Assembly: GCF_001610895.1 (NCBI RefSeq)
Contig: NZ_CP011273.1
Location: 2,294,001-2,358,000, forward strand
Source: Planctomyces sp. SH-PL62
Lineage (GTDB): Bacteria > Planctomycetota > Planctomycetia > Isosphaerales > Isosphaeraceae
Length of the DNA stretch: 64,000 nt
Reading direction: 5' to 3'
Shown here: positions 7,754-22,143 of the stretch, piece by piece
Layout: every line of letters starts with the position of its first letter
Position numbering within the stretch: position 1 is the first letter of the stretch
Notes under the pieces: generated by a model
The model's database searches: none
Seen by the model: only the letters and a program-made list of their open reading frames with translations
Told to the model about the DNA's origin: nothing
Translations under genes and position numbers: made by a program

Positions 7754-9208
7754 ATGACGAATCCGACCCGGCGCGACTTCCTGGGAACGGCGGCTTTCGC
7801 CTCGATGCTCGGCTCGAACGGCTTCTCCGGCGGGGCCGTCGCCTCGGCGGTGGTCCCGAGGCCGACCGACATCGGCATCGAGGACGTCAGCTATGGGTAC
7901 GAGGATTATCGGTATCGGACGCCGATCAAGTTCGGCGGGACGGTCGTCGATCGCGCGACGATCCTGAACGTCACGTGCGTGGTCAAGACGCGGGACGGCC
8001 GCATCGCGAAGGGGTTCGGGTCGATGCCGATGGGGAACGTCTGGTCGTTCCCCTCGAAGGTGCTGACGTACGACGCCACGCTGGCCGCGATGAAGGACCT
8101 GGCCGAGCGGATCGGCAAGATCACCGCCGCGTACGACGGGACCGCCCATCCCATCGACGTCAACCGGGACCTGGATCCCGAGTACCTCAAGGCCGCCGCC
8201 GAGACCACCCGCGCGCTCGGCCTGGCCGAGCCGATCCCGAAGCTCTGCACGCTGACCGTCGCCAGCGCCTTCGACGCCGCGATCCACGACGCCTTCGGCA
8301 AGGTCCACGGCCGCAGCTGCTACCAGACCTACGGGCCGGACTTCATGGCGAACGACCTCTCCGCCTACCTCGGCCCGGACTTCCGGGGCGAGTACGCCAG
8401 CCGGTACGTCACCGAACACCCCAAGCCCCGCATGCCGATGTACCACCTCGTCGGGGCCGTCGACGCGATCACCGACGCCGACGTCAAGACGCGGATCGGC
8501 GACGGGCTCCCCGAGACGCTCCCCGAATGGATCGCCCGCGACGGCCTGACGAACATCAAGATCAAGCTCAACGGCGAGGACCTGGACTGGGACGTCGACC
8601 GCGTCCTGAGCGTCGAACGCGCGGCCGCCGAAGCCCAGGCCCGGCGCGGGGTGACGGAATGGGTCTACTCGCTCGACTTCAATGAGAAGGCCCCGAACGT
8701 CGGCTACCTCATGGAGTTCATCCGGCTCGCGAAGGAGAAGACGCCCGACGGATTCCGGCGCATCCAGTACATCGAGCAGCCGACCGCGCGCGACCTCCAC
8801 GCCTCGCCGTCGCACGCGATGGACGAGGCCTCGCGCGTGCTCCCCGTCGTGGCCGACGAATCCCTCACCGACGTCGAGAGCCTGATCCTGGCCCGCGATC
8901 GGGGCTACACGGGCGCCGCGCTCAAGGCGTGCAAGGGGCAGAGCCACGCGCTCCTGCTGGCCGCCGCCGCCCAGAAGTTCGGGATGTTCCTCTGCGTCCA
9001 GGACCTCACCTGCCCGGGCGCCTCGCTGATCCATTCCGCCGGGCTCTCGGCCCACATCCCCACCGTCCGGGCCATCGAGGCCAACGCCCGCCAGTACATG
9101 CCCGAGGCGAACCGAGCGTGGGAGAAGCGCTTCCCGGGCCTCTTCATCGTGAAGGACGGGACGATGGAAACGGGCCTCCTCACCGGTCCCGGCCTGGGCG
9201 CGGTCTGA
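7754..9208 (+). CDS. Enolase-superfamily enzyme (mandelate racemase/muconate lactonizing type) with Tat signal
   Basis: 484 residues. The N-terminus TRRDFLGTAAFASMLG carries a twin-arginine motif, so export in folded form is likely. The catalytic barrel shows enolase-superfamily landmarks in order: KIKLNG (Lys pair on strand 2), SLDFNEK (first metal Asp), IEQPT (Glu), VADESL (Asp) and ALKACKGQS. The length is above the usual 360-400 because of the leader and an extended capping domain. Family knowledge predicts abstraction of a proton alpha to a carboxylate; the substrate is unknown. Start ATG 7754 puts the Tat motif at residues 6-8. It sits after the secreted hydrolases, so a role in sugar-acid catabolism is possible but not shown. 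Confidence 0.75.
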   Translation: MTNPTRRDFLGTAAFASMLGSNGFSGGAVASAVVPRPTDIGIEDVSYGYEDYRYRTPIKFGGTVVDRATILNVTCVVKTRDGRIAKGFGSMPMGNVWSFPSKVLTYDATLAAMKDLAERIGKITAAYDGTAHPIDVNRDLDPEYLKAAAETTRALGLAEPIPKLCTLTVASAFDAAIHDAFGKVHGRSCYQTYGPDFMANDLSAYLGPDFRGEYASRYVTEHPKPRMPMYHLVGAVDAITDADVKTRIGDGLPETLPEWIARDGLTNIKIKLNGEDLDWDVDRVLSVERAAAEAQARRGVTEWVYSLDFNEKAPNVGYLMEFIRLAKEKTPDGFRRIQYIEQPTARDLHASPSHAMDEASRVLPVVADESLTDVESLILARDRGYTGAALKACKGQSHALLLAAAAQKFGMFLCVQDLTCPGASLIHSAGLSAHIPTVRAIEANARQYMPEANRAWEKRFPGLFIVKDGTMETGLLTGPGLGAV

Positions 9209-9257
9209 CCTCGTCGGCGACGCCTCCCCGGCCCCTCGATTTCTCCAGGAGATCGCG

Positions 9258-9692
9258 ATGATCCCGTATTCCCAGTTCGGCCTCCTGCGGTTGCGCCCGT
9301 TTCGTCCCGAGGCGGAGGTCGTCGAGCTGGACGACTGGGAGTACGAGGGCCGCTGCTGGGTCGGGGAGGCGATCAAATTCTCGGAGTGGCTGCGGCCCGA
9401 GGAGAAGCCGGAGGCGCTCGGGTCGCTGAGCCTCGATTTCGACGAGTTCCCGGCTCCTGCGGCGGATCGCGTGCTGGAGGCCCTCGACCTGCCCGTCCGG
9501 GCGGGGATGACGTTCGAGGAGTTGAAAGCCGTTCTGGGCGAGCCCGTCGAGACGCTGCGGTTCAGCCCGAACAAGGTCACCTACGAATTCCTGACCGCCG
9601 GGGCCGAGCCTTACCAGGTCTCGTGCACGGTCAAGAACCAAGGCGGCCTGAGCTACCTCGGCGTCATGATCCCGGCCGGGCGCGCCGAGTAG
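9258..9692 (+). CDS. Hypothetical protein
   Basis: 144 residues, acidic, no signal peptide or membrane segment. The ATG at 9258 follows CAGGAGATCGCG, a good ribosome site. A C-terminal part, about residues 75-140 (MTFEELKAVLGEP... KVTYEFLTAGAEPYQVSCTV... LSYLGVMI), looks like a small alpha/beta fold. I do not recognise a family. It lies 49 bases after the enolase-superfamily gene on the same strand and may be co-transcribed. Confidence 0.6.
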   Translation: MIPYSQFGLLRLRPFRPEAEVVELDDWEYEGRCWVGEAIKFSEWLRPEEKPEALGSLSLDFDEFPAPAADRVLEALDLPVRAGMTFEELKAVLGEPVETLRFSPNKVTYEFLTAGAEPYQVSCTVKNQGGLSYLGVMIPAGRAE

Positions 9693-9711
9693 CCCGAGGA
9701 ACCGTCGGGCC

Positions 9712-9936
9712 TCACGTCGTCGCGTCCCCGGGCCGGTCGCCACGGCCGGAAGCGTCGAGCACGCGAAGCAGCCGCGTGAGGACGGCCTCGGGATCGAGCC
9801 CGCTCTCCCGGCAGGCGTAGGCCAGCGACTTGCCGCCGCAATGCTGGTCGACGCCCAGCTCCTGGAACACCGCCTCGGTCTCGGGATGGTCGATCACCCA
9901 GTCCGGTACCGAGCTGTCCAGGTCGCATCCGGTCAT
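9712..9936 (-). CDS. DUF542 (ScdA N-terminal) mini-protein
   Basis: 74 residues from the ATG at 9936, which has GAGGAG eight bases upstream. The core SVPDWVIDHPETEAVFQELG followed by VDQHCGGKSLAYACRESGLD matches the N-terminal DUF542 domain of ScdA/YtfE/RIC iron-sulfur cluster repair proteins, including the conserved Cys in DQHCGG. In RIC proteins this domain precedes a di-iron hemerythrin domain; here it stands alone and no hemerythrin gene is next to it. A role in repair of nitrosative or oxidative damage to iron-sulfur clusters is inferred only from the domain. The upstream region (9955-10010) is AT-rich and likely carries the promoter. Confidence 0.8.
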   Translation of the reverse strand: MTGCDLDSSVPDWVIDHPETEAVFQELGVDQHCGGKSLAYACRESGLDPEAVLTRLLRVLDASGRGDRPGDATT

Positions 9937-10089
9937 CGCGTCGCTCCTCACCAATCAAAATAAAAGCTAGTATCGATTTAACACCACATCCTGAGCCGAG
10001 AAATCACAAGGAGCGCCCAGGCGGCGGGGCGCTGACGAATTCATCTGACGTGGCCTGAGAGGCCGTTCGGAAGCCTGGCGACGCGGCGA

Positions 10090-10875
10090 TCACGGTCGGG
10101 TCGCCGGCATCGTCCTGAGCAGGTCGATCATCGCCTGTTGGCTCACTCGCAAGACCCCCTGGTGGGCCCGATCCAGGTCGAGGATGAGATAGAGCACCAC
10201 GGCGAAGGCCAGCGACAGCATCAGCATCTCGGGCGATCGCCTGGTCTCCGACAGGCCCGCCTGGTAGCCTACCGACGCAATCCCGATGAAGGCCAGGCAG
10301 AAGAGCGAGAGCCAGATGCTCAGGGGGATGCGACTCCGGAGCCCTACGAGCACCCGCGTGGCATGCAGGTCGATCGTCGCATTCAGCGACTGGATGAAGA
10401 GCCCCGTCATGATCGACGAAGGGTTCCCGTCGGCGACGACCACCGTTCGCGACCAGAGTTGCTCGTGCAGTTCCTGCGACCGGGCGATCACCCCGGCGAT
10501 CCTGGTCTCCGTCACGCCATGCGCGCGAAGCTCCGTGTACTCCCGGAGCAAGTCCATGATCTCGGACCGCTGCGGCTCGGGCAAGAGTCGAGCGCGCAGG
10601 TACGTCGTGCCGATCGCGTTCGCCTCTTCGAGGACGACCTGACGTCGTGCGTCGAATCGGGCCGCCGCGAAACCGAAGGTGAACGCGAGCATGAAGGCCA
10701 GGAGGCCGAGGATCGATCCCACCATCGCGGCGACCGGCGCGACCTTCTCCGCCGTCGAGAGCGAGAACCGCCATCGACCAAGGCGATAGCCGGACTCCAT
10801 GGCGAGCATGCCGACGGCGACCGCCGCCGGCAGGAAGAGCCAGAGCGGAATCCAATCCAGCGCCGCGTATTCCAT
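10090..10875 (-). CDS. DUF4239 (bestrophin-like) membrane protein
   Basis: About 261 residues starting MEYAALDWIPLWLF at 10875, where CGGAGG sits just upstream; longer in-frame starts give an unlikely Arg/Ser-rich extension. Four membrane segments are visible: around residues 8-27, 48-70, 185-207 and 215-235. Between the second and third is a soluble loop with FDARRQVVLEEANAIGTTYL and LLPEPQRSEIMDLLREYT, the characteristic block of DUF4239 proteins, which are distantly related to bestrophin channels. Function is not established. It diverges from the DUF1963 gene at 11052. Confidence 0.8.
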   Translation of the reverse strand: MEYAALDWIPLWLFLPAAVAVGMLAMESGYRLGRWRFSLSTAEKVAPVAAMVGSILGLLAFMLAFTFGFAAARFDARRQVVLEEANAIGTTYLRARLLPEPQRSEIMDLLREYTELRAHGVTETRIAGVIARSQELHEQLWSRTVVVADGNPSSIMTGLFIQSLNATIDLHATRVLVGLRSRIPLSIWLSLFCLAFIGIASVGYQAGLSETRRSPEMLMLSLAFAVVLYLILDLDRAHQGVLRVSQQAMIDLLRTMPATRP

Positions 10876-11051
10876 CGGGCCTCCGACGTCTCGCTCAGGT
10901 CTCGATCCGACCCCACGGAGATCCACCCATTCGTCATTATGGCGCGTCGCGAGCGACGAGGGCAGGGGCTGGCCGTTGAACCAAGGCATTCGGCGTGGGA
11001 AGTTAGGCCCGGATCTGGTGCAGGCCCGAGACGATCGAAGGAGGCTGAGGG

Positions 11052-12242
11052 ATGAGCGGTCTGACCGACGCATTGGTCGCGCATTGTCGAGCGAAGCCCG
11101 GCGCGACCCCCGGAGAGCAGGACGATTTCAAGCTCCTCGGGGGCTTCCTCGACACCTTCGCCCGGTTCTACCGCAACGACGACCCGCCGGCGATGATGGT
11201 CCGCTGCCCCGACGACGTGCGCCGGCGCCTGGCCGCGTCCCATGCCGGCGTCGTCGTCTCGGAACGCATGCACTGGGAGACCGTGGGCTGGACCTGGACC
11301 GACGTCCCCGTGGACGGCTCGATCCCGGTCGAGACGCTGATCGGGCTGATCGAGACGTCGCACGATCTCCTGTACGACGATCTCGACGAGCCCAGAAGGT
11401 TCCTGATCCAGCTGCTCGCCCGCGGCGCGACGCCGGCCGAAGCCCTCGCGGCCCTGATCGAGAACGCCGGGCTGGAAGGTCGTCGCGGCGAGATCGAGGG
11501 GCTGGCGCGCCCGGCCTTCGCGATCATCACGAACGCGCCCCGCGACGACGAGCCGCCGATCGGGACGACGCGGATCGGCGGTCGCCCCGACCTGGGCGAT
11601 TCGACCGAATGGCCCCGCTACGAGGACGGCCGCCCCATGACCTTCCTCGCGCAGATCAACCTCGCCGAACTCCCCGAAGGGGCCGACCGCGGCCCGCTCC
11701 CCCCGGCCGGGCTCCTCTCGATCTTCTCGGCCTGGGGCTGGCAGGTCGAGGACGACGCCGACCCCCATCCGCCCGAAGGCGACCCGACCCCGGACTGGAC
11801 CCGCATCGTTTACGCCGAGGACCCGTCGACGCTCACGCGCAGTCCCACGCCCGAAGGGCTGAACGAATTCCCGGCCGCCCCGGGCGAGCCGGTCCCAATC
11901 ATCGCCCTCCCCAGCAGCGCCGAGGAGCCGGCGGTCAAGGCGCTCGAATGGGACGAGGAGACCTGGAACGCCTTCTATGAGGCCGTGCTCAATCCCTTCA
12001 CCTTCCTCCAGGCGATGACGATCGGCCGCCCCCTGGACAGCAAGCTGCTGGGATACGCCGACTTCATCCAGGATTTCGACCCCGCCGCCGACGACGGCCG
12101 AAGCCTCCTCTTCCAGCTCGGCAGCGACGATCAGGCCGCGATGTGCTGGGGAGACGGCGGCTGCCTCTACTTCTTCGCCGATCCCGAAGGCCTCGCCCGC
12201 GGCGACTTCTCGCGAATCCACTCCGCCTTTCAATGCGGCTGA
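11052..12242 (+). CDS. YjbR/MmcQ-DUF1963 two-domain protein
   Basis: 396 residues. The N-terminal part (about 1-115) reads like a MmcQ/YjbR domain, with KPGATPGEQDDFKLLGG, a MMVRCPDDVRRRL strand-helix, MHWETVGWTWTDVPVDG and IETSHDLLYDDLDEP. The C-terminal part (about 165-396) is DUF1963 (YwqG-like): PPIGTTRIGGRPDLGDSTEW, MTFLAQINLAELP and LLFQLGSD with MCWGDGGCLYFF. Both are small domains of unknown function seen mostly as separate proteins. No signal peptide, so probably cytoplasmic. Start ATG 11052 follows AAGGAGGCTGAGGG, a strong ribosome site. Confidence 0.8.
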   Translation: MSGLTDALVAHCRAKPGATPGEQDDFKLLGGFLDTFARFYRNDDPPAMMVRCPDDVRRRLAASHAGVVVSERMHWETVGWTWTDVPVDGSIPVETLIGLIETSHDLLYDDLDEPRRFLIQLLARGATPAEALAALIENAGLEGRRGEIEGLARPAFAIITNAPRDDEPPIGTTRIGGRPDLGDSTEWPRYEDGRPMTFLAQINLAELPEGADRGPLPPAGLLSIFSAWGWQVEDDADPHPPEGDPTPDWTRIVYAEDPSTLTRSPTPEGLNEFPAAPGEPVPIIALPSSAEEPAVKALEWDEETWNAFYEAVLNPFTFLQAMTIGRPLDSKLLGYADFIQDFDPAADDGRSLLFQLGSDDQAAMCWGDGGCLYFFADPEGLARGDFSRIHSAFQCG

Positions 12243-12571
12243 CCGCCATTGCCTTGATGACTCGCCTCTGCGGAGCGGCCCTGGGTGCCACGGGCCGGTG
12301 ATCGAGGCAATTTGGTATGACCGCCGCTCCCATCCGGCGACGAACTCCGACCCTCCTCCGCACGGAACGCGCATCATGTCGCACTGTGCAAGTAGGGGGC
12401 GGTGCGCCCGGAACCGTCGCGTCGGTCCCGCACCTTGGTTTGGACCACGCCCCGTCGGCGGCGTCCTCTCCAGCCAACCCGAGAATGCAGGAAGAGAATG
12501 GCCGAACCAAGCCAATCCCAACGCTCGAAAATCAATGACAAACCGTTTCAGGAATGCATCTTGCGTCCGAT

Positions 12572-12603
12572 GGCTTCGATCGTCGGCCCCGCCGATCGAA
12601 GCC
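12572..12603. repeat. Perfect 11-bp hairpin
   Basis: GGCTTCGATCG is followed ten bases later by its exact reverse complement CGATCGAAGCC. There is no T-run on either side, so a terminator role is unproven. It abuts the long palindrome, and the word GATCGAA recurs near 12912. Confidence 0.6.
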
Positions 12604-12616
12604 AATTTTCGGGAGA

Positions 12617-12806
12617 CTCCTCACTTCACACCACCGAGCACCGACGAAAGGCCTCGGGTGCCATTGGTTCCGCGAACGCGCGGAGCGGCCGGGAGTTCGG
12701 GCGACGGCACGGGACTGGCCCGACGCCGATCCACGCGTTCGCGGAACCCGTGGCCCACCGATCGCCGTCTCCCGAGCCCTTTGAGGCGGTGGTGTGAAGT
12801 GAGGAG
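12617..12806. repeat. 190-bp inverted-repeat element (MITE-like or structured RNA)
   Basis: Exact 19-bp terminal inverted repeats: CTCCTCACTTCACACCACC at 12617-12635 and its reverse complement at 12788-12806. Inside lies a second perfect 14-bp inverted pair (GTTCCGCGAACGCG at 12667-12680 against 12734-12747). Partly matching segments between them (AAAGGCCTCGGG against AAAGGGCTCGGG in the reverse complement) make the arms nearly continuous over 60-70 bases. The centre is about 53 bases. No transposase frame and no clear target duplication are present. Confidence 0.75.
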
Positions 12807-12951
12807 CGTCAGCATTTCGCCCGAACGGAGCCAATCACCTCGACGAACCAACTCAACCTAATATCATAATCTTAATAGACTTACGATCCGTCCAGCCTGA
12901 ATCGGGGCTGGTCGATCGAACCCAATCGAAGCCGATTTGCGGCCGGGGCGA

Positions 12952-13836
12952 TCAGCGGCGGAGGCGTTCGCTGAGGCTGATGGCGTCGAGGTCGTTGGGG
13001 GCGAGGCGGAGGGCTTGCTCGACGGCTTCGAGGGCGGCGGCGGGGTGGCGGGCGGCGTCGAGGGCGAGGGCCAGGGCGAGGTGGACGTCGGGGCGGTCGG
13101 GGAGTTGCTGGGAGGCGTTGCGAAGGTCCTTGACGGCCGGGTCGATGTGTCGGAGGGCGAGGTGGGCGCGACCCCGGAGGAAGACGGCTTCGGCGTCGCC
13201 GGGGGTGGCCTCGATGGACTGGTCGAGCCGGACGAGGGCCTGGTCGGCCTCCCCCCTCGCGAGCTGGACGGCGGCGATGCGGCGGTTGGACTCGGCGAGG
13301 AAGGGGTCGTTTTCCAGGGATCGGAAGTAGGCGGCGAGGGCCTCGTCGGTCCTCCCCAGGGCCTCCAGCACGACGGCGAGGCCCAGGTGGCCGGAGGCGT
13401 CGTGGGGCTCGATCTCGACGGCGGTCTCCAGCCGCTTGAGGGCGGAGTCGAGCTGGCCCCGGCCGGCCTCCATCCGCCCCAGCCCGATCAAGGCCCCGAC
13501 GTAATCGGGGTCCAGTTCGAGGGCCTTGCGGAAGCAGGCCTCGGCCTCGGCGGGGCGGCCCCGGAGCTGGATCACGGCGCCGAGCCGCTGGTAGGCTTCC
13601 GGCGAGCGCGGGGAGACGGTGACGAGCTGGGCCAGCTCGGCCTCGGCGCGGTCGAGGGCGCCGGCGTCGACGGCGGCCTGCGCGCGCTCGCTGATCGCCT
13701 GGGCCTGCGCGGCCTTCTCCGGGCTGAGCCCATCCTTGGGGCCCCCCCGGCGCGTGCCCGACCAGCTACAGCCGGGGAGCCCCGGCAGTAGACAGAACAG
13801 GACGCCGACGAAGGCGATCAAGCCCCTGCGCCGCAT
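12952..13836 (-). CDS. TPR-repeat lipoprotein
   Basis: 294 residues. The start at 13836 gives MRRRGLIAFVGVLFCLLPGL ending in a PGC lipobox, so a lipid-anchored export form is likely; longer in-frame starts would bury this signal. The mature part is a run of tetratricopeptide units from residue about 50 to the end, with the usual A..LG.....G....A...F..AL..DP periodicity (for example AYQRLGAVIQLRGRPAEAEA). At least six units are recognisable. TPR lipoproteins usually scaffold envelope complexes; no partner is identifiable. It is the last gene of a same-strand group after the histidine-kinase-like gene (139 bases apart). Confidence 0.8.
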   Translation of the reverse strand: MRRRGLIAFVGVLFCLLPGLPGCSWSGTRRGGPKDGLSPEKAAQAQAISERAQAAVDAGALDRAEAELAQLVTVSPRSPEAYQRLGAVIQLRGRPAEAEACFRKALELDPDYVGALIGLGRMEAGRGQLDSALKRLETAVEIEPHDASGHLGLAVVLEALGRTDEALAAYFRSLENDPFLAESNRRIAAVQLARGEADQALVRLDQSIEATPGDAEAVFLRGRAHLALRHIDPAVKDLRNASQQLPDRPDVHLALALALDAARHPAAALEAVEQALRLAPNDLDAISLSERLRR

Positions 13837-13975
13837 GCGATCGAATCCCCTTCCCTGGGGTGGGCAGGGCCGGTCGGGCCCGGCCCCGGCGCGATCGCGA
13901 CCGGACGCACCCGTCCGGCTCGCCCGCTTCCTCGCCAATATGACCCTCGAAAGCTACGCCCAATCGGGCCGATGG

Positions 13976-14794
13976 TCAATGGCGATCGGCCTCGGGTCGG
14001 GCGGTCATCGGGCTCGGGGAAGGGGGGGTGCGGGGGAAGACGATGCGGACCACGGTCCCTCGGCCCTCGTCCGAATCCAGAAAGATGCGGCCGTGGAGCT
14101 GGTTCACCAGCTCGAGGCCGATCGACAGCCCGAGGCCGTTCCCCTCGACGGACGAGTGCTCGTCGCGGTCGAGCCGGAAGAAGGGCTCGAAGATGCGCTG
14201 CTGGTAGGAGGGGGGCACGCCCGGCCCGTCGTCGGCGACGGTGAGGCTCCAGGATTCGGCGTCGGCCTTCCCCTCGATGCGCACCCGGCCGCCCGGCGGG
14301 GTGAACTTCAGGGCGTTGGAGACCACGGCGGCGAAGAGCTGCTGACATCGGCAGGCGTCGGTGACCACCAGGACGTCGCCGTCCCCCTCGGCGGCCTCGG
14401 CCCGCCAGTCCAGCTCCTTGGCGCGGGCGGCGGCCCCGAAGGAGCGATCGATCTCGTGGACGAGGGCCCGGATCGAGAAGGTCCCCAGGCTGGGGGAGCG
14501 GGTCCCTCGGATGACCTCGGCGTAGTCCAGGTAGCTTCGGGTCAGGCGGAGCAGCTCGTCGCAGAGCGTCCGCATGGTGCCGACGTGCCCCTTCTGGGCG
14601 GCCGAGAAATCGGTCGGCCCGTCCCCCAGGAGCAGGTCGAAGCCCGTCCGCAGCGAGGCGAGGGGACGGCACAGCTCGCCGCTCAGGCTGCACAGCAGGT
14701 TGTGCAGCTCCTGCTGGTCGAACCTGGGCGGCGTCGGGCCGACGGGGGCCGGATGGGGATGGGGGGCGAGTTCGGACTGGGGGTGCGCATTCAT
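13976..14794 (-). CDS. Sensor histidine kinase-like protein lacking the phosphoacceptor histidine
   Basis: About 272 residues from ATG 14794 (an in-frame ATG at 14866 is possible). There is no membrane segment or sensor domain. The dimerisation helix that normally reads SHELRTPL reads SGELCRPL here, with Gly at about residue 39 instead of His. The ATPase domain is complete: N-box AVVSNALKFTP, G1 DDGPGV, F-box IFEPFFRLD and G2 GNGLGLSIG. So ATP binding is probably kept while canonical autophosphorylation is not expected. Another His (in QELHNLL) lies five residues before that Gly and could conceivably substitute. It lies in the same direction as the BON-like and ANTAR regulator genes, so these are likely partners. 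Confidence 0.8.
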   Translation of the reverse strand: MNAHPQSELAPHPHPAPVGPTPPRFDQQELHNLLCSLSGELCRPLASLRTGFDLLLGDGPTDFSAAQKGHVGTMRTLCDELLRLTRSYLDYAEVIRGTRSPSLGTFSIRALVHEIDRSFGAAARAKELDWRAEAAEGDGDVLVVTDACRCQQLFAAVVSNALKFTPPGGRVRIEGKADAESWSLTVADDGPGVPPSYQQRIFEPFFRLDRDEHSSVEGNGLGLSIGLELVNQLHGRIFLDSDEGRGTVVRIVFPRTPPSPSPMTARPEADRH

Positions 14795-14890
14795 GACGGA
14801 CTCGGGGTTGGACGCCGGATCGGGGCTCTGAAACGCGCAGCCGCCCCCGGCGATCGCGATCGCCATGCGGGGCGGGGTCGGGCGGGATGC

Positions 14891-15151
14891 TCAGGAGACG
14901 ACGATCTGGTTGGTCAGCAGCGGATAGCCGTCGGTGAGGTCCAGCACGGCCTGCTGGGCGATCTGCTTCGCGTGGTAGGTGCGGGACCGTCCCCGGAGCA
15001 AGATCCGGTCGTCGCTGTAGTCCACGTGGAGGTCGCGGATGCGGCCGTTGGCGATCCGGTTGACGTGGCCCTGGATGTACAGAGCGAGTTCCTGGTGCGT
15101 CCGGCCCGGGCCCAGCCGAGGGGAATCGGACTGAAGCTGTTGCATCGTCAT
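14891..15151 (-). CDS. BON-domain-like small protein
   Basis: 86 residues from the ATG at 15151, preceded by GAGGAG six bases upstream. The core ELALYIQGHVNRIANGRIRD followed by LHVDYSDDRILLRGRSRTYHAKQIAQQAVL has the alpha-beta-beta-alpha pattern of BON domains, with the typical I-LRG-S-T-K turn. No signal peptide is visible, so it is probably cytoplasmic. It lies between the histidine-kinase-like gene and the ANTAR regulator. Its 290-base leader contains competing stem-loops (see findings). Confidence 0.65.
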   Translation of the reverse strand: MTMQQLQSDSPRLGPGRTHQELALYIQGHVNRIANGRIRDLHVDYSDDRILLRGRSRTYHAKQIAQQAVLDLTDGYPLLTNQIVVS

Positions 15152-15189
15152 GGGCGTCTCCTCATCCTTGGCGTCGCGATGCAAGGCGA

Positions 15190-15216
15190 CAGGAGTCCGC
15201 TCGGGCCGGGCTCCTG
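15190..15216 (-). promoter_or_regulatory. Leader stem-loop upstream of the BON-like gene
   Basis: On the minus strand CAGGAG and CTCCTG can pair around a 15-base segment that has its own CCG/CGG inner pairing. The CTCCT arm could alternatively pair with the AGGAG ribosome site of the next gene (15158-15163), 27 bases further on. The pairing is seen in the sequence; a regulatory role is inference. Confidence 0.3.
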
Positions 15217-15442
15217 AGATCCGTGGTTCGACGTGCGGCCGAGCCGACCGGGGGGGGTGAGGATCTGGGATCGCCCCCCGGGCTCGCGAAGCCCGTCGAC
15301 CGCCCTGGCGTCGGAAGTCGGCCCCGTCATCCCAACGGAATCCGGTCGACGGAAAGGGCGGGCCGGCGACGGCGTCCCGGGCGTGTCCGGGGCTCCCTCG
15401 CCGACGCTTCGCAGCCTAACCGTCCCGGGTCGCGGCGTCAAC

Positions 15443-16093
15443 TCAGTCGATCGGGGGCTCGGCGGGGCGTCGGGGACGCGAATTCGGGGGGGTCGGGGCG
15501 CTGGAGGAGTCCGTGAGCAGCTCGTCGGTCTGGATGATCGACTCGGCGAGCTTGGCCATCGGCACGCGGCGGTCCTGGCTCTGGCGCTGGAGCAGTCGGA
15601 AGGCCTCGTTCTCGTTGAGCTGCTTGCGGGTCATCAGGATCCCCTTGGCCCGCTCGATGAGCTTGCGTTCGCGGAGGCTCATCTTGAGGTGGTCGACGTC
15701 CTCCTGGAGTTCCTGGATGTCTCGGGCGCGGGCGACGGCGACCTCGACGATCGCCTGGAGGCTCTGCGTGGTGATCGGCTTGAGGATGTACTGGATGACG
15801 CCGTCCTCGACGGCCTGGCCGATCAGGTGGGGATGGGCGTGGGCGGTGACGATGACGACCGGGGTGCCGGGGTCCTCGGCGATCTGCCGGGCCGCGGCGA
15901 GGCCGTCGAGGCCGGGCATCTCGATGTCCAGGAAGATCGCGTCGGGCTGGAGCCGGCGGCAGATCTCGACCGCGCGCTGGCCGTCGTGGACGACCGCGAC
16001 GACCTCATAGCCCAGCGACTCCAGCTGGCTCTGCAAGCCGGTGGCGACCGTTTTCTCGTCGTCCGCGATCACGAATCGGTAGCCCTGTGACAT
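15443..16093 (-). CDS. Response regulator with ANTAR RNA-binding output domain
   Basis: 216 residues from MSQGYRFVIADDEKTVATGL. The receiver domain (about 1-125) has the acidic pair DD at 11-12, phosphoacceptor Asp about 56 in AIFLDIEMPG, a switch Thr in VIVTAHAH and Lys in ILKPIT. The C-terminal ANTAR domain (about 143-190) reads KLIERAKGILMTRKQLNENE then AFRLLQRQSQ. ANTAR proteins act after phosphorylation by binding paired hexanucleotide-loop hairpins in nascent RNA and preventing termination. A Pro/Ser-rich tail of about 25 residues follows. The likely sensor is the degenerate kinase two genes downstream. It diverges from the MaoC gene. Confidence 0.92.
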   Translation of the reverse strand: MSQGYRFVIADDEKTVATGLQSQLESLGYEVVAVVHDGQRAVEICRRLQPDAIFLDIEMPGLDGLAAARQIAEDPGTPVVIVTAHAHPHLIGQAVEDGVIQYILKPITTQSLQAIVEVAVARARDIQELQEDVDHLKMSLRERKLIERAKGILMTRKQLNENEAFRLLQRQSQDRRVPMAKLAESIIQTDELLTDSSSAPTPPNSRPRRPAEPPID

Positions 16094-16282
16094 CGTCGTA
16101 CCTGCCCTCTCGCTGGTGGAACTCTGGACCTCGCTCGCCCCGTCGCCCAACGACGCGCCGGCGGCCTGGACTCGAACGACTCCGCTCCTCGCGCCTCCCC
16201 CCCGCGCTTCCGCCCCCGCGAGGGAGCGGTTAGACTCGGGTCGACCCTGGCCCCCCACTCACGGATGCGGAGCACGTCGAGG

Positions 16283-16768
16283 ATGGCGCGACATCGGAAC
16301 AACCCCCTGGGATACAACGACCTCACGATCGGCGACGAATGGGAAAGCCCCGGGAGGACCGTGACCGAGACGGACGTGACGACGTTCGCCGGCCTCTCGG
16401 GAGACTTCAACGCCCTCCACGTCGATCACGCCTGGGCGGCCGACGGCCCGTTCGGGAAGCCGGTCGCGCATGGGCTGCTGGGACTGGCCCTGGTCTCCGG
16501 GCTCGCCAGCCACGCCCCCCGCGTGGACACGCAGGCGTTCCTGGCGATCCTGGAGTGGAAGTTCCTGCTCCCCATCGCGTTCGGCGACACCGTTCGGGTG
16601 ATCTCACGCGTCGAGTCCATCGAGCCCCAGGCCCGAGGCCGCAGGGCTCTCGTGGTCTGGCGCCGCCGGCTGATCAACCAGGACGACCTCGTGGTGCAGG
16701 AGGGGCTCACCCAGACTCTCGTTCGAGCCCGCTCCCTCGCCGCCCCCTCCGAGCCCGAATCCTCCTGA
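16283..16768 (+). CDS. MaoC-family hot-dog dehydratase
   Basis: 161 residues. The hydratase signature appears as TTFAGLSGDFNALHVDHAWA with the catalytic Asp and His of the G-D-x-N-x-x-H motif, followed by VAHGLLGLALVSGL. The rest (FLLPIAFGDTVRVISRVESI) fits the MaoC/R-specific enoyl-CoA hydratase hot-dog fold. It probably hydrates or dehydrates an acyl-CoA thioester. I chose ATG 16283 (GGAG eleven bases upstream); ATG 16265 is the alternative and adds six residues. It is a single gene between divergent ANTAR and convergent guaA genes. Confidence 0.88.
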   Translation: MARHRNNPLGYNDLTIGDEWESPGRTVTETDVTTFAGLSGDFNALHVDHAWAADGPFGKPVAHGLLGLALVSGLASHAPRVDTQAFLAILEWKFLLPIAFGDTVRVISRVESIEPQARGRRALVVWRRRLINQDDLVVQEGLTQTLVRARSLAAPSEPESS

Positions 16769-16918
16769 GATCGAGGAGTCCGGCCCCTTGCGAAGTTCGT
16801 CCCTTCCTCGTCCCGTACCGCCGTCCGACACCACCTATATCTCTCCGGATCCAGGCGGAAGGCAAGCAAATTCAGGGCCGAGCACGGCGATTCCGCAAGC
16901 GGGGATGAGTCGCTCGTC

Positions 16919-18481
16919 TCACTCCCACTCGATCGTCCCGGGGGGCTTGCTGGTGATGTCGTAGACGACCCGGTTCACCCCCTTGACCTCGTTGATGATC
17001 CGGGTGGAGGTGCGGGCCAGCATGTCGTGGGGGAGCCGGGACCAGTCGGCCGTCATGTAGTCCTCGGTCTCGACCGCGCGGACGGCGATCACGTTCTCGT
17101 AGGTCCGCGCGTCCCCCATCACGCCGACCGATCGGACCGGCAGCAGCACGGCGAAGGCCTGGGCCGTCTGCCGTTCCAGGCCGGCGGCTCGCAGCTCGTC
17201 GAGGAAGACGGCGTCGGCCTGGCGGAGGACTTCCAGGCGGGCGGCGGTGACCTCGCCCAGGCAGCGGACGGCCAGCCCCGGGCCGGGGAACGGATGCCGC
17301 CAGACCAGGGAGTCCGGGAGGCCCAGCTCCAGGCCCAGGCGTCGGACCTCGTCCTTGAACAGGTCGCGGAGGGGCTCGATCAGCTCGAAGCCCAGCTCGG
17401 CGGGGAGGCCGCCGACGTTGTGGTGGATCTTGATCGTGGCGGCCGGGCCGTCGGGCGCGCCGCCGCTCTCGATCACGTCCGGGTAGAGGGTCCCCTGGGC
17501 GAGGAAGTGGGCGCCGGGGATCGAGCGGGCTTCCTCGCGGAAGACGTCGATGAAGGTGTGGCCGATCCGAAGCCGCTTCTCCTGGGGGTCGGTCACCCCG
17601 GCGAGGGCCTCGAGGAACTGGCCCGAGGCGTCCACGACCCGAAGCTCGGCGTCGCTGTGGCCCCGGAAAACCTCCTCCACCTGGGCGCGTTCGCCCCCCC
17701 GGAGCAGGCCGGTGTCGACGAACACGCAGACGACCCGAGACCCCAGGGCCTTCGCCAGCAGCGCCGCGCAGACCGCCGAATCGACGCCGCCGGAGAGCCC
17801 GCAGACGACCCGCTGGTCGGGGCCGACCTGCGCCCGGACCCGCTCGACGGCCTGCTCGATGAACGCCTCCATCGTCCAGCCGCGGGGGTTGCCGCAGATC
17901 CGGTCGAGGAAGTTGCCGAGCATCAGGGCCCCGTACGGGGTGTGCGAGACCTCGGGGTGGAACTGCAGGCCGTAGAAGGGATAGGTGCGGTGCTTGGCCG
18001 CGGCGATCGGGCAGGTGGCGGTCGCGGCCAGGGGGAGGAAGTCGGCGCCGGCGTCGAGGATCTGATCGCCGTGGCTCATCCAGACGGTCGTCTCGCGGGG
18101 GACGTCGTGGAAGAGGGGCTCGGCGGGGTCGATCACCCGGCAGTCGGTCCGGCCGTACTCGCGGGCCGGAGGGGCGTCGACCTTCCCGCCCAGGGCCTGC
18201 ACCGCCAGCTGCATCCCGTAGCAAATGCCGAGCACCGGCACCCCCAGCTCGAACAGCGCCGGGTCGCACTGCGGCGCGCCGGGCTCGTACACGCTGCTGG
18301 GGCCGCCCGAGAGGATCAGGGCCAGGGGGTTGAGCTCCCGGACGCGCTCCGCCGTGATGTCGTGGCGGACGATGCGGGCGAAGGCGTGCCGCTCGCGGAC
18401 CCGACGCGCGATCAGCTGGACGTACTGCGCGCCGAAGTCGAGCACCAACACCGGCCGCGACGAGGGATCGGAGGGATCCAT
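16919..18481 (-). CDS. guaA: GMP synthase (glutamine-hydrolysing)
   Basis: 520 residues, the usual length. The N-terminal class I glutamine amidotransferase has [10 protein letters not shown], the nucleophile in [11 protein letters not shown] and the HPE pair in [10 protein letters not shown]. The ATP-pyrophosphatase domain begins with the P-loop [12 protein letters not shown], and the C-terminal dimerisation domain ends [10 protein letters not shown], as in canonical GuaA. It converts XMP to GMP using glutamine and ATP. Start ATG 18481 ([20 protein letters not shown]) is preferred over an Arg-rich extension to 18562. It is transcribed alone, divergent from the small membrane protein at 18751. 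Confidence 0.98.
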
Positions 18482-18669
18482 ATCAGGCTTGTCTTCCCAG
18501 CGAGGAGGTCGAGAAACTCCCGGCCGCGAGGCGAGGCGAGGCGTCGCGACGCGCGTCGGCAAATCGTCACTCTAGCATGGCGACAGAAAATCGGGAATCC
18601 GCCAGCCCGGACTTTTCGAAGCCCGACGGGCCGATGGCGCCGATCGTCCGGGTCGACCTCTTCGCGGTC

Positions 18670-18698
18670 TTGACAGCGCCCGTCGGGCCAAGTCAGAT
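18670..18698 (+). promoter_or_regulatory. Possible promoter for the 18751 gene
   Basis: TTGACA at 18670-18675 is a perfect -35 match; 17 bases later TCAGAT is a poor -10 (a GATAAG overlap is another option). The position is about 50 bases before the start codon at 18751. Confidence 0.35.
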
Positions 18699-18750
18699 AA
18701 GCTTGGTGGTGCAGGTCCTCGCGGACGACTCGTGCGAAAGGTGGCAGGCG

Positions 18751-19227
18751 ATGGCATCGGCATCCGGCGGAGCAAAGCCCGCGTCCTCCACGGCCCACGC
18801 CCCGGTCCTCCCCGCGGGCGTCCTCCCCTCGCCCGTCCACCCCCCGCGCCCCGGCTACGAGTTCAACGAGGTCGAGAATCGGATCATCCGCGATCTCGGC
18901 TCGAAGATGAGCTTCGTCGGCCTGTTCATGGTCGGCATCGGCCTCTGCTTCGCCGTCATGACCATCCAGCGCTGGTCGCGATACCAGGAGATCGAGGTCG
19001 GCTTCCTCTTCCTGGCGATGCTGTTCATGGTCTTCGGCGTCTGGACCCACCGCGCCGGCCGGGACTTCCGCCTGGTGGTCGACTCCCAAGGACGCGACGT
19101 CGCCCACCTGATGGCCGCCCTCTCGTCGCTCCTGAAGTGCTACCGTCTCATCTACATGCTCTTCTTCGTCGGCCTGATCTTCGCCATGATCCTCCTGGCT
19201 GCGGCCCAGGTGGGAGGGCGAGGGTGA
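18751..19227 (+). CDS. Small membrane protein, unknown
   Basis: 158 residues starting MASASGGAKPASSTAHAP at 18751, with AAAGGTGGCAGG upstream. After a Pro-rich cytoplasmic N-terminus, three hydrophobic stretches are visible: FVGLFMVGIGLCFAVM (about 52-67), VGFLFLAMLFMVFGVW (about 81-97) and LIYMLFFVGLIFAMIL near the C-terminus. No known domain is recognised. Its end is 34 bases from the convergent proC end. Confidence 0.7.
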   Translation: MASASGGAKPASSTAHAPVLPAGVLPSPVHPPRPGYEFNEVENRIIRDLGSKMSFVGLFMVGIGLCFAVMTIQRWSRYQEIEVGFLFLAMLFMVFGVWTHRAGRDFRLVVDSQGRDVAHLMAALSSLLKCYRLIYMLFFVGLIFAMILLAAAQVGGRG

Positions 19228-19261
19228 GGGTGAAGCCGACCGACGGCCCGCCCGCGCCCGC

Positions 19262-20116
19262 TCAGGATTTCGCGATCGCCGCGAGTTCCGCGGAGCGGCG
19301 GGAGGCGGCCTCGACGGCGTCGATGAGGGCGCCGCGGAGGGCTTGGCGTTCGAGGACCTGGACGCCGGCGATCGTGGTGCCTCCGGGGCTCGTCACCTGG
19401 TCTTTCAGGGCACCGGGGTGGATCTTCGTTTCGAGGACCATCCTGGCGGCGCCGAGGACCGTCTGGGCGGCGAGGGTCGTCGCCACGTCGCGCGGGAGTC
19501 CCGCGCGGACGCCGCCGTCGGAGAGGGCCTCGATGATCATGTAGACGAAGGCCGGGCCGCTCCCCGAGAGGCCCGTCACGGCGTCGAGCTGCGATTCCGG
19601 CACCCGCACGGCCCGGCCGACCGAGTCCAGGAAGCGCTGGACGGCGTCGGCGTCGGCGTCGGTCGCGTTCGCCCCCAGCGCGAAGGCCGAGGCCCCCTCG
19701 CCGAGCAGGGCGGGCGTGTTGGGCATCACCCGGACGATCCGCGTCGCGGCCCCCAGCGCGGCCGACATCGCGGCGATCGGGACGCCGGCCGCGATCGAGA
19801 CCACCAGATGCCGAGGGGCGAGCGCCGGGGCGATCTCGGCCAGCACGCCCGCCATGCTCTGCGGCTTGACCGCCAGGACGACCACGTCGCTGGCGTCGAG
19901 GACCGGCCGATTGCTCCCGTGGACGGCGATCCCGGCCTCGCGGCCCAGCTCCTCGCGCGCGGCGGGGATCGGGTCGCTCGCGGCGATCCGGTCGGGGGTC
20001 GCCACCCCCGCGCGGATCATCCCTTTCACCAGGGCCGAGGCCATCCGGCCCGCGCCCAGGAATCCCCAACGGAGGGGGTCGCGATCGGTCGATTCGGTCG
20101 GCGTCGGCATGGTCAT
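19262..20116 (-). CDS. proC: Pyrroline-5-carboxylate reductase
   Basis: 284 residues. The Rossmann start GFLGAGRMASALVKGMI and the C-terminal signature LSGSGPAFVYMIIEALSDGG with SPGGTTIAGVQVLE identify ProC, which makes proline from pyrroline-5-carboxylate with NAD(P)H. Start ATG 20116 overlaps the coaX stop as ATGA, so translation is likely coupled. It is the last gene of the obgE-coaX-proC run. Confidence 0.97.
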   Translation of the reverse strand: MTMPTPTESTDRDPLRWGFLGAGRMASALVKGMIRAGVATPDRIAASDPIPAAREELGREAGIAVHGSNRPVLDASDVVVLAVKPQSMAGVLAEIAPALAPRHLVVSIAAGVPIAAMSAALGAATRIVRVMPNTPALLGEGASAFALGANATDADADAVQRFLDSVGRAVRVPESQLDAVTGLSGSGPAFVYMIIEALSDGGVRAGLPRDVATTLAAQTVLGAARMVLETKIHPGALKDQVTSPGGTTIAGVQVLERQALRGALIDAVEAASRRSAELAAIAKS

Positions 20117-20880
20117 GGCTCGCTCGGGAAGGCCGCGTGGACGAGGCCCTGGAGGACGAGGTCGGGGATGACGCGGGCGGCGGGGCCTTCGACGGCCGGG
20201 GCGAGCCGGAAGGCGTCGCCGCCGGTCCAGACGACCAGGGGAGCGGCGCCGAGGTCGACCGCCTGGCGGGCCAGCAACTCGCGGACGGCCCCGACCGAGC
20301 CCCAGAAGACGCCGGCTTCCAGCGAGGGGACCGTGGACCGGCCCCACGACGGGGCGCAACGGCCGGGGTCCACCAGCGGGAGCTGGGCGGTGAAGTGGTG
20401 CAAGGCGCGGGCGCAGAGGCCCATGCCCATCGCGATCGCCCCCCCTTGCCAGACGCCGCCGGGGGTGATCCGTTCGATCGTGATCGCGGTGCCGCACGAG
20501 ACCACCAGGATCGGCCTCCCCGGGCCCAGCAGCCGCGAGGCCGCCAGCACGGCGAGCGCGCGGTCGGCGCCGCCGGTCTCGGCCCCTTCGACGTCCTTGG
20601 CCACCGGGACCTCGGCCGCGGTCAGGAACCAGCGGACCTCGGCCACGCCCCGATCGGCCAGGAACGCCCCCAGGCGAGCGGCCAGGGGAGGGTTGACCGA
20701 CGAGACGGCCCAGGTCGCCGGGCCGGTCGCGGGACGGAGCCAGCCGTCGAGGACGACGCCCCAGACCTTCGGGTCGTCGAGGGGGAGCGAGACGCTCGGC
20801 CCGGACGCCCCGTGCTCGTCGAGCAGGGCCCACTTGAGACGGGAGTTGCCGATATCGGCGACGATCCGGGGCATGGTCAT
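20113..20880 (-). CDS. coaX: Type III pantothenate kinase
   Basis: 255 residues. The N-terminal phosphate-binding loop IVADIGNSRLKWAL, the block GGADRALAVLAASRLL and LVVSCGTAITIERI with WQGGAIAMGM are typical of CoaX, the ASKHA-fold enzyme that starts coenzyme A synthesis. It overlaps obgE upstream and proC downstream by ATGA, implying one transcript and coupled translation. One variation is visible: the N-terminal loop reads DIGNSRLK, where many CoaX proteins have DxGNTxxK. Confidence 0.93.
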   Translation of the reverse strand: MTMPRIVADIGNSRLKWALLDEHGASGPSVSLPLDDPKVWGVVLDGWLRPATGPATWAVSSVNPPLAARLGAFLADRGVAEVRWFLTAAEVPVAKDVEGAETGGADRALAVLAASRLLGPGRPILVVSCGTAITIERITPGGVWQGGAIAMGMGLCARALHHFTAQLPLVDPGRCAPSWGRSTVPSLEAGVFWGSVGAVRELLARQAVDLGAAPLVVWTGGDAFRLAPAVEGPAARVIPDLVLQGLVHAAFPSEP

Positions 20881-21992
20881 TCGCTCGCGGAAGAGACCGA
20901 ATCCGCGGCCGGCTCAGGGTCCGATTCCGGGTCCGGAATCGAAGGCGAGGCGGGGGCGGGCGGGAGCGTGATCCGCGTCGGCTCCGGCGTCTCCTCTTCC
21001 TCGGGACGGTCCTTCAGCTTTTCCTGGATCGCGCGGAGGAGCTGGGGGACGCCCCGGCCGGTGACGGCGGAGATGGAGAGCACGTCGCGGCCGATCTCGC
21101 GGGCGAGCCGGTCGCGCGCCTCCTCGGCGTCGGTGAGGTCCATCTTGGTGACCACCACCAGCTCGGGCCGCTCGGCCAGGGCCTGGCTGTACTGCTCCAG
21201 CTCCTTGCGGATCATCTCATAGTTGCGCACCGGGTCCGAGCCGTCGACCGGCATGGCTTCGACCAGATGGACGAGCAGGCCGGTGCGTTCGACGTGGCGG
21301 AGGAACTCGTGGCCCAGCCCCAGCCCGGTGTGGGCGCCTTCGATCAGGCCGGGGATGTCGGCGACGACGAACGCGTGCTCGGAGTCGACCAGGACGGTCC
21401 CCAGGTTGGGGTATTTGGTGGTGAACGGGTAGTCGGCGATCTCGGGATGGGCGCGGGAGATTCGCGAGAGCAGGGTCGACTTGCCGGCGTTGGGGAGGCC
21501 GATCAGGCCGACGTCGGCGATGACCTTCAGCTCCAGGACGATCCAGCGCTCCTCGCCGGGGAATCCGGACTCGTGCTGCCGGGGGGCGCGATTGACGGAC
21601 GACTTGAAGAAGGTGTTGCCGTGGCCCCCTCGGCCCCCCTTGGCGACGACGACCTGGTCGCCGTGGTTCTTGAGGTCGCGGAGGACGTGGCCGCGGTCGC
21701 GGTCGCGGATGATGGTCCCCGCCGGGACTGTGATCGTCAGCGGCTCGCCCCGCTTGCCGAAGCAGTTGGAGCCCTGGCCGTGGTCGCCGCGCTCGGCCTT
21801 CCAGTGCCGCTGGTGCGACAGGTGGGCGAGGTTGGTGAGCCCTTCCTCGGCGCGGATGATCACGTCGCCGCCGTCGCCGCCGTCGCCCCCGTTGGGGCCG
21901 CCGCGAGGCGCGTACTTCTCGCGACGGAAGCTGAGGCAGCCGTTGCCGCCGTCTCCCCCGCGAACGAAAATGGTCACGCGATCCGCGAACAT
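20877..21992 (-). CDS. obgE: Obg-family GTPase (ribosome assembly)
   Basis: 371 residues. The glycine-rich Obg fold has FVRGGDGGNGCLSFRREKYA and GGPNGGDGGDGGDVI; the G domain has G1 GLPNAGKST, G2 in DYPFTTKYPNLG, G3 DIPGLIEGA and G4 VVTKMD. The last 40 residues are a Pro/Glu/Ser tail. Obg associates with the large subunit and couples ribosome assembly to GTP levels. rpmA lies 151 bases upstream on the same strand, the common rpmA-obgE order. Confidence 0.98.
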   Translation of the reverse strand: MFADRVTIFVRGGDGGNGCLSFRREKYAPRGGPNGGDGGDGGDVIIRAEEGLTNLAHLSHQRHWKAERGDHGQGSNCFGKRGEPLTITVPAGTIIRDRDRGHVLRDLKNHGDQVVVAKGGRGGHGNTFFKSSVNRAPRQHESGFPGEERWIVLELKVIADVGLIGLPNAGKSTLLSRISRAHPEIADYPFTTKYPNLGTVLVDSEHAFVVADIPGLIEGAHTGLGLGHEFLRHVERTGLLVHLVEAMPVDGSDPVRNYEMIRKELEQYSQALAERPELVVVTKMDLTDAEEARDRLAREIGRDVLSISAVTGRGVPQLLRAIQEKLKDRPEEEETPEPTRITLPPAPASPSIPDPESDPEPAADSVSSASE

Positions 21993-22143
21993 GGAGCGAC
22001 TCGATCCGGTGGAAGACGGGGGTCCATCAAGCGAACAGAGAGCGAGGGTCCCGGCCGACGGCCGAGGGACGCCCGCCCTCCCTGGTCTTCGCTCGATCGG
22101 GGGAGGGGGTCCGCGCGCAGCCGCGGCTCACCCCCGACCCGGT

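Follow-up and report, generated by a model that had tools for sequence, protein, structure and literature searches.

A histidine-kinase-like protein of Planctomyces sp. SH-PL62, here called HK1, carries Gly where the phospho-acceptor His is expected, and together with its relatives it represents a repeated, graded catalytic loss in one operon-bound kinase lineage. Pseudo-histidine kinases are already known, mainly as single cases such as DivL and RocA; the sensor-less form, the setting beside an ANTAR regulator and a BON-like protein, and the series of forms within one family set this case apart. The explanation in which we place about half of our confidence is that HK1 is a pseudo-histidine kinase which arose in Paludisphaera after the lineage of one species, G028, had split off, and which docks the ANTAR regulator without phosphotransfer.

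The window, that is, the whole stretch of 64,000 nucleotides analysed here, contains the module on its minus strand. One gene (15443..16093) encodes a response regulator of 216 amino acids, in which a receiver domain (Pfam Response_reg, 95.5 bits) with the phosphorylatable Asp56 as well as Asp11/Asp12, Thr83 and Lys105 is followed by an ANTAR domain (76.1 bits), both over the Pfam cut-offs. Next come a BON-like small protein of 86 amino acids (14891..15151), whose Pfam BON score of 18.4 bits is under the cut-off of 27, and HK1 (13976..14794), which has 272 amino acids when counted from the Met at 14794 (MNAHPQ); this start, not that at 14866 of the longest frame, is conserved across relatives. 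A preliminary description of this DNA had placed the three genes at a shared locus, and this is borne out: the order ANTAR, BON, HK1 is kept at every orthologous locus with enough sequence to read, the BON-like gene occupies the identical slot in relatives, and a divergent dehydratase-like gene lies there on the other side of the module. Because neither sigma-70 promoters nor intrinsic terminators were matched across the locus, the operon structure is read from conserved order only, and it is likewise from gene order only that we infer the cognate pairing of HK1 and the regulator. Between the ANTAR and BON genes lies a gap (15152-15442 in the window) that, by the standards of an operon, is both long and even, at 250-300 bp in most relatives. 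It contains neither a known RNA family nor ANTAR-type hairpins; across 20 genomes, hairpins with an A..G.. hexaloop are not in excess either here or in the region preceding the regulator gene, and Rfam over 9000..22000 of the window gave nothing significant. On these grounds, ANTAR RNA targets near the locus were rejected.

The H-box of HK1 reads SGELCRPL, as had been noticed in the preliminary description, and Gly39 (codon GGC, 14678..14680, minus strand) stands at the phospho-acceptor position. In the alignment to the YycG kinase (4u7n), this Gly is matched with the His of SHELRTPL and Arg with the Thr at His+4, and further downstream Ala is matched with the first N-box Asn and Phe with the N-box Tyr. 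Chance or sequencing error is ruled out by a non-His residue common to five species, and each of the 30 further HisKA domains inspected in the same genome has His. Pfam gives HK1 86.7 bits for HATPase_c, and 12 bits for HisKA against a cut-off of 26.9. The claim that all the ATP-binding boxes are kept holds only in part: N160 and the G1, F and G2 boxes (D188, G190, G192, F202, G218, G220, G222) are intact, as is E40, but N156 is replaced by Ala (codon at 14327..14329, minus strand) and Y164 by Phe, leaving the N box with one of its two Asn residues. HK1 has the predicted fold of a canonical HisKA-type kinase but lacks its phospho-acceptor His and its full N box. The AlphaFold model (mean pLDDT 85) shows a DHp-CA fold, made of helices 27-57 and 65-96 and a CA domain; about 25 residues before the first helix are disordered, and there is no sensor or membrane part, in agreement with the earlier claim. 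The closest folds are those of HK853 complexed with its regulator RR468 and of DivL (VIA Z ~22).

How is the loss of the His distributed among relatives? Comparison of 45 Isosphaeraceae genomes gave 25 with a clear HK1 orthologue, and a profile search of 397 Planctomycetia genomes returned the same 25 (339-423 bits; next best 167 bits), all of them in Isosphaeraceae, to which orthologues of the ANTAR regulator are likewise restricted at a comparable cut-off. Position 39 is His (CAC or CAT) in 19 of the 25. Five of the six species of Paludisphaera, the window's own genus, have Asp (GAC, n=3) or Gly (GGC or GGG, n=2) there, and the sixth, G028, retains His; within genus g6, the residue is Gln in G008 and His in G007. 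The codons would fit a single-step path from His through Asp to Gly. On a tree built without the H-box column, the five His-less Paludisphaera genes form one clade (support 100/99) nested among His-bearing genes, and at least four His changes are necessary, two of which (Paludisphaera and G008) rest on well-supported neighbours. The other two belong to more distant groups described below, G026 and genus g20, for which branches are long and placement is unsure, but the absence of His is seen directly. The preliminary description had held that homologues with an intact His would speak against its reading. Such homologues are indeed the majority, yet the tree reveals lineage-specific and repeated loss; misalignment is not the cause, and N156 is lost at the same point.

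All five His-less Paludisphaera have Ala at residue 156, where their His-bearing sister G028 has Asn. In His-bearing genes of other genera this residue is also Asn except for Cys in G007, an exception that counts against our best explanation; elsewhere G008 has Arg, G026 has Gly and g20 has Glu. A sign test of the co-loss of N156 and His gives 0.25, and four events cannot reach significance. Judged by motif spacing, N156 corresponds to N343 of EnvZ, where mutations abolish kinase activity (PMC8971529). Because N160 and all the residues of the G1, F and G2 boxes listed above are retained in Paludisphaera while His and N156 are lost, ATP binding may persist there with the transfer machinery gone. 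Is the ATP site then still used for phosphorylation? HK1 might phosphorylate in trans a His on another protein, such as the DHp domain of a second kinase, HK2, or it might use H31 or D39 as the acceptor. The intact boxes and E40 would allow this, all six of the His39-less genes with G boxes retained have H31, and HK2 in the window genome, whose catalytic domain is cut by a frame break, would need such a rescue in trans. However, N156 and Y164 were lost along with the His, the frame break, which falls at a run of six G, may stem from a sequencing error, and continued use of the ATP site seems to us very improbable. H31, the His of QELH to which the preliminary description had pointed, is only a weak candidate for an alternative acceptor. 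Although it is found in G008, which is His39-less with G boxes, it is also found in all Paludisphaera including the His39-bearing G028, and with few exceptions it is Arg elsewhere; it lies 8 residues, or ~80 degrees round the helix, from site 39, has no H-box context, and in most species lacks an acidic residue directly after it.

A phosphatase role, which had also been suggested, has lost ground. HisKA phosphatase activity requires Thr or Asn at His+4 (PMC3510030), and that of HK853 requires the His as well (PMC5727384). Because Arg43, the residue at His+4, is invariant in the 22 aligned clear orthologues, even the His-bearing members of the family are unlikely to be phosphatases by the usual mechanism, and for HK1 itself, with Gly at the His site and Arg at +4, a canonical phosphatase role was rejected.

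Is such a gene simply dying? By the Nei-Gojobori method, dN/dS of the HK1 core is 0.20-0.26 in five His-less pairs and 0.49 between the window and G032, against 0.04-0.23 in His-bearing pairs. When the window is set against its two nearest species, the values are 0.25-0.28 for the regulator, 0.30-0.37 for the BON-like gene and ~0.09 for GuaA. DHp is under tighter constraint than CA in most HK1 pairs. Because these ratios are below 1 yet somewhat above those of His-bearing pairs, HK1 is under purifying selection, neither decaying freely as a pseudogene nor constrained like its active-looking relatives, and part of its change after the loss of His may be relaxation. The rise in dN/dS after His loss, with one pair at 0.49, counts against our best explanation and in favour of a kinase in slow decay, in which the His was lost once phosphorylation was unneeded and loss of the gene is to follow. 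The family does offer a graded series for such a course, from intact through His-less and ATP-less to absent forms, since ANTAR and BON are present without HK1 in G011 and G024. We nevertheless consider slow decay quite unlikely: in the five His-less species the frame is open and most ATP boxes are kept over synonymous distances of ~0.4-1.1, dN/dS is well below 1, and even a fully dead form is conserved in g20. It is possible, if rather doubtful, that the primary role of HK1 never needed His phosphorylation, even in His-bearing relatives, and that the His was therefore lost at least twice, and probably four times, with the gene still selected.

The fully dead form came from genomes without a strong HK1 match, which were examined at the locus of the regulator. 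Five distant relatives of HK1 (G026 and four g20 genomes) were found in the same slot, and all of them have lost His and the ATP boxes. In G026, the protein encoded after BON reads ALAREISRPL, with Arg at the acceptor site, and its G1 box is broken. In the four g20 genomes, an HK1-like protein is encoded directly after the regulator, with Glu, Thr, Asp and Glu at the acceptor site and with no recognisable N, G1 or G2 box. Pfam no longer detects a kinase in the type of protein found in G041, while hhalign aligns it to the HK1 family over 227 columns (probability 98.9, E 2e-17), and from this comparison the g20 proteins are true HK1 relatives. They are conserved among the four species with a mean column identity of 65%. 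AlphaFold predicts for them a DHp-CA fold with pLDDT 84, in a model that leans towards the family fold since its input alignment included intact relatives. This conservation without His and ATP boxes, together with the predicted fold, counts in favour of docking. Foldseek matches of the model include RetS, the best, DivL and others at 1e-10 to 1e-12. RetS, which acts on GacS in Pseudomonas, resembles HK1 in its histidine-kinase fold and in working, as proposed for HK1, by contact with another signalling protein; unlike HK1, it is a large membrane hybrid that acts on a kinase, and it is not known to be tied to an ANTAR regulator. Fully degenerate relatives of HK1 lie at L103:7200-7976 and L107:6788-7603, unrecognised by Pfam or far below its cut-off, and those of g20 retain the family signature CDD..LT..YLDY.

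If HK1 does not phosphorylate the regulator, does phosphorylation of the latter matter at all? It probably still does, because Asp56 is present in 38/38 relatives, and Thr83 and Lys105 in 37/38. The phosphate could come from HK2, often encoded beside the module in relatives, or from a small phospho-donor. The His of HK2 is invariant in 34/34 genomes and stands in an H-box of the type VGH..IN, to which Pfam HisKA gives no score. The residue at +1 is non-acidic and that at +4 is Asn, a pattern which, under the rule of PMC3510030, favours phosphatase over kinase activity. HK1 orthologues show the reverse, an acidic residue at +1 and no Thr/Asn at +4, and a division of labour between HK1 and HK2 is put forward here as a hypothesis only. 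Of the 30 genomes with HK1, 13 have the HK2 gene next to the module in convergent orientation, and so do G011 and G024, which have no HK1. Members of the HK2 family (for example L101:4344-5051, L103:8016-8753, L107:7614-8327 and others) often adjoin a gene for a secreted-looking protein of 400-450 amino acids.

The proximity of the two kinase genes, with the invariant His and the Asn at His+4 in HK2, favours the main rival to our explanation, in which HK1 forms heterodimers with a kinase that has the His, HK2 for example, and tilts that kinase towards its kinase or its phosphatase state. There are precedents in RocA-CovS (PMC7380576), ChrS-HrrS (PMC9491836) and RetS-GacS, the last involving the same RetS that is the best structural match of the fully degenerate form. 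Yet the H-box type of HK2 differs, so that DHp heterodimers are not obvious. Moreover, the HK2 gene of Paludisphaera is located away from the module, at a distance of ~250 kb in the window genome (L171:3010-3720; contig C1, ~2055010-2055720), where its frame is broken between the N box and the G1 box. The frame is open in the five other Paludisphaera, and the break may be a real loss or a sequencing error. We regard action on a partner kinase as unlikely; the separation of HK2 from the module and its broken frame count against our best explanation as well.

What, then, could a histidine kinase without its histidine do? According to the docking explanation, HK1 would be unable to autophosphorylate, transfer phosphate or dephosphorylate, while its conserved DHp helix pair would still dock the receiver domain of the neighbouring ANTAR regulator, possibly gated by bound ATP or ADP. 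Docked HK1 would hold or present the regulator and so set how much free (phosphorylated) regulator reaches RNA. The fixed order of the module, the four His changes, the loss of N156, Arg at +4, selection, the constraint on DHp and the fold all point to docking. The suggestion in the preliminary description of a scaffold or anti-partner acting without canonical transfer would also fit these data, with the fold kept, His and N156 lost, and the gene under selection. DivL of Caulobacter binds DivK~P while acting neither as a kinase nor as a phosphatase, and like HK1 it is a HisKA-type DHp-CA protein that is linked to a response regulator and has kept the other boxes although its acceptor His is replaced (PMC4211667; PDB 4q20; VIA Z 22.3 between the folds). 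Similarly, EnvZ without catalytic activity reduces the output of OmpR to roughly the same degree as do putative phosphatase variants, an effect attributed to sequestration (PMC8971529). However, DivL has several PAS domains and a cell-cycle role on DivK/CckA, while HK1 has no sensor domain and sits with an ANTAR regulator; the acceptor site of DivL is a conserved Tyr (Ala in Magnetospirillum), while that of the HK1 family varies among Gly, Asp, Gln, Arg, Glu and Thr. With no domain before the DHp helices and with Gly at the site, HK1 was ruled out as a DivL orthologue.

Active counterparts of the module are PdtaS-PdtaR of mycobacteria, a soluble, cytosolic kinase with a receiver-ANTAR regulator (PMC5676007), and EutW-EutV of Enterococcus, where EutV, also a receiver-ANTAR regulator, is activated by phosphorylation-driven dimerisation (PMC3369931). 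PdtaS, compared here by description only, phosphorylates PdtaR and EutW autophosphorylates, whereas HK1 has no acceptor; nor are hairpins of the EutV type, with their hexaloop, found near the HK1 locus. RocA of group A Streptococcus and the evolved ChrS-CA-fs of Corynebacterium resemble kinases but are catalytically dead, and each tunes a two-component pathway (PMC7380576, PMC9491836); unlike what is proposed for HK1, they act through a partner kinase, which RocA binds by membrane segments absent from HK1. In the literature searched, there was no case of a pseudokinase paired with an ANTAR regulator. If the primary role of HK1 indeed never needed His phosphorylation, the HK1 family would be a natural series from a kinase to a pure docking protein, including loss of the whole ATP site in one genus. 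With intact, His-less and ATP-less forms at hand, the function of a dead kinase and the order of catalytic dismantling can be tested directly, in a case that bears on the control of an RNA-binding regulator.

Elsewhere in the window, a small ORF on the minus strand (9712-9954; VPDWVIDHPETEAVFQELGVDQHCGGKSLAYACRESGLDPEAVLTRL) encodes a product that we take to resemble ScdA/RIC iron-sulfur repair proteins in their N-terminal part.
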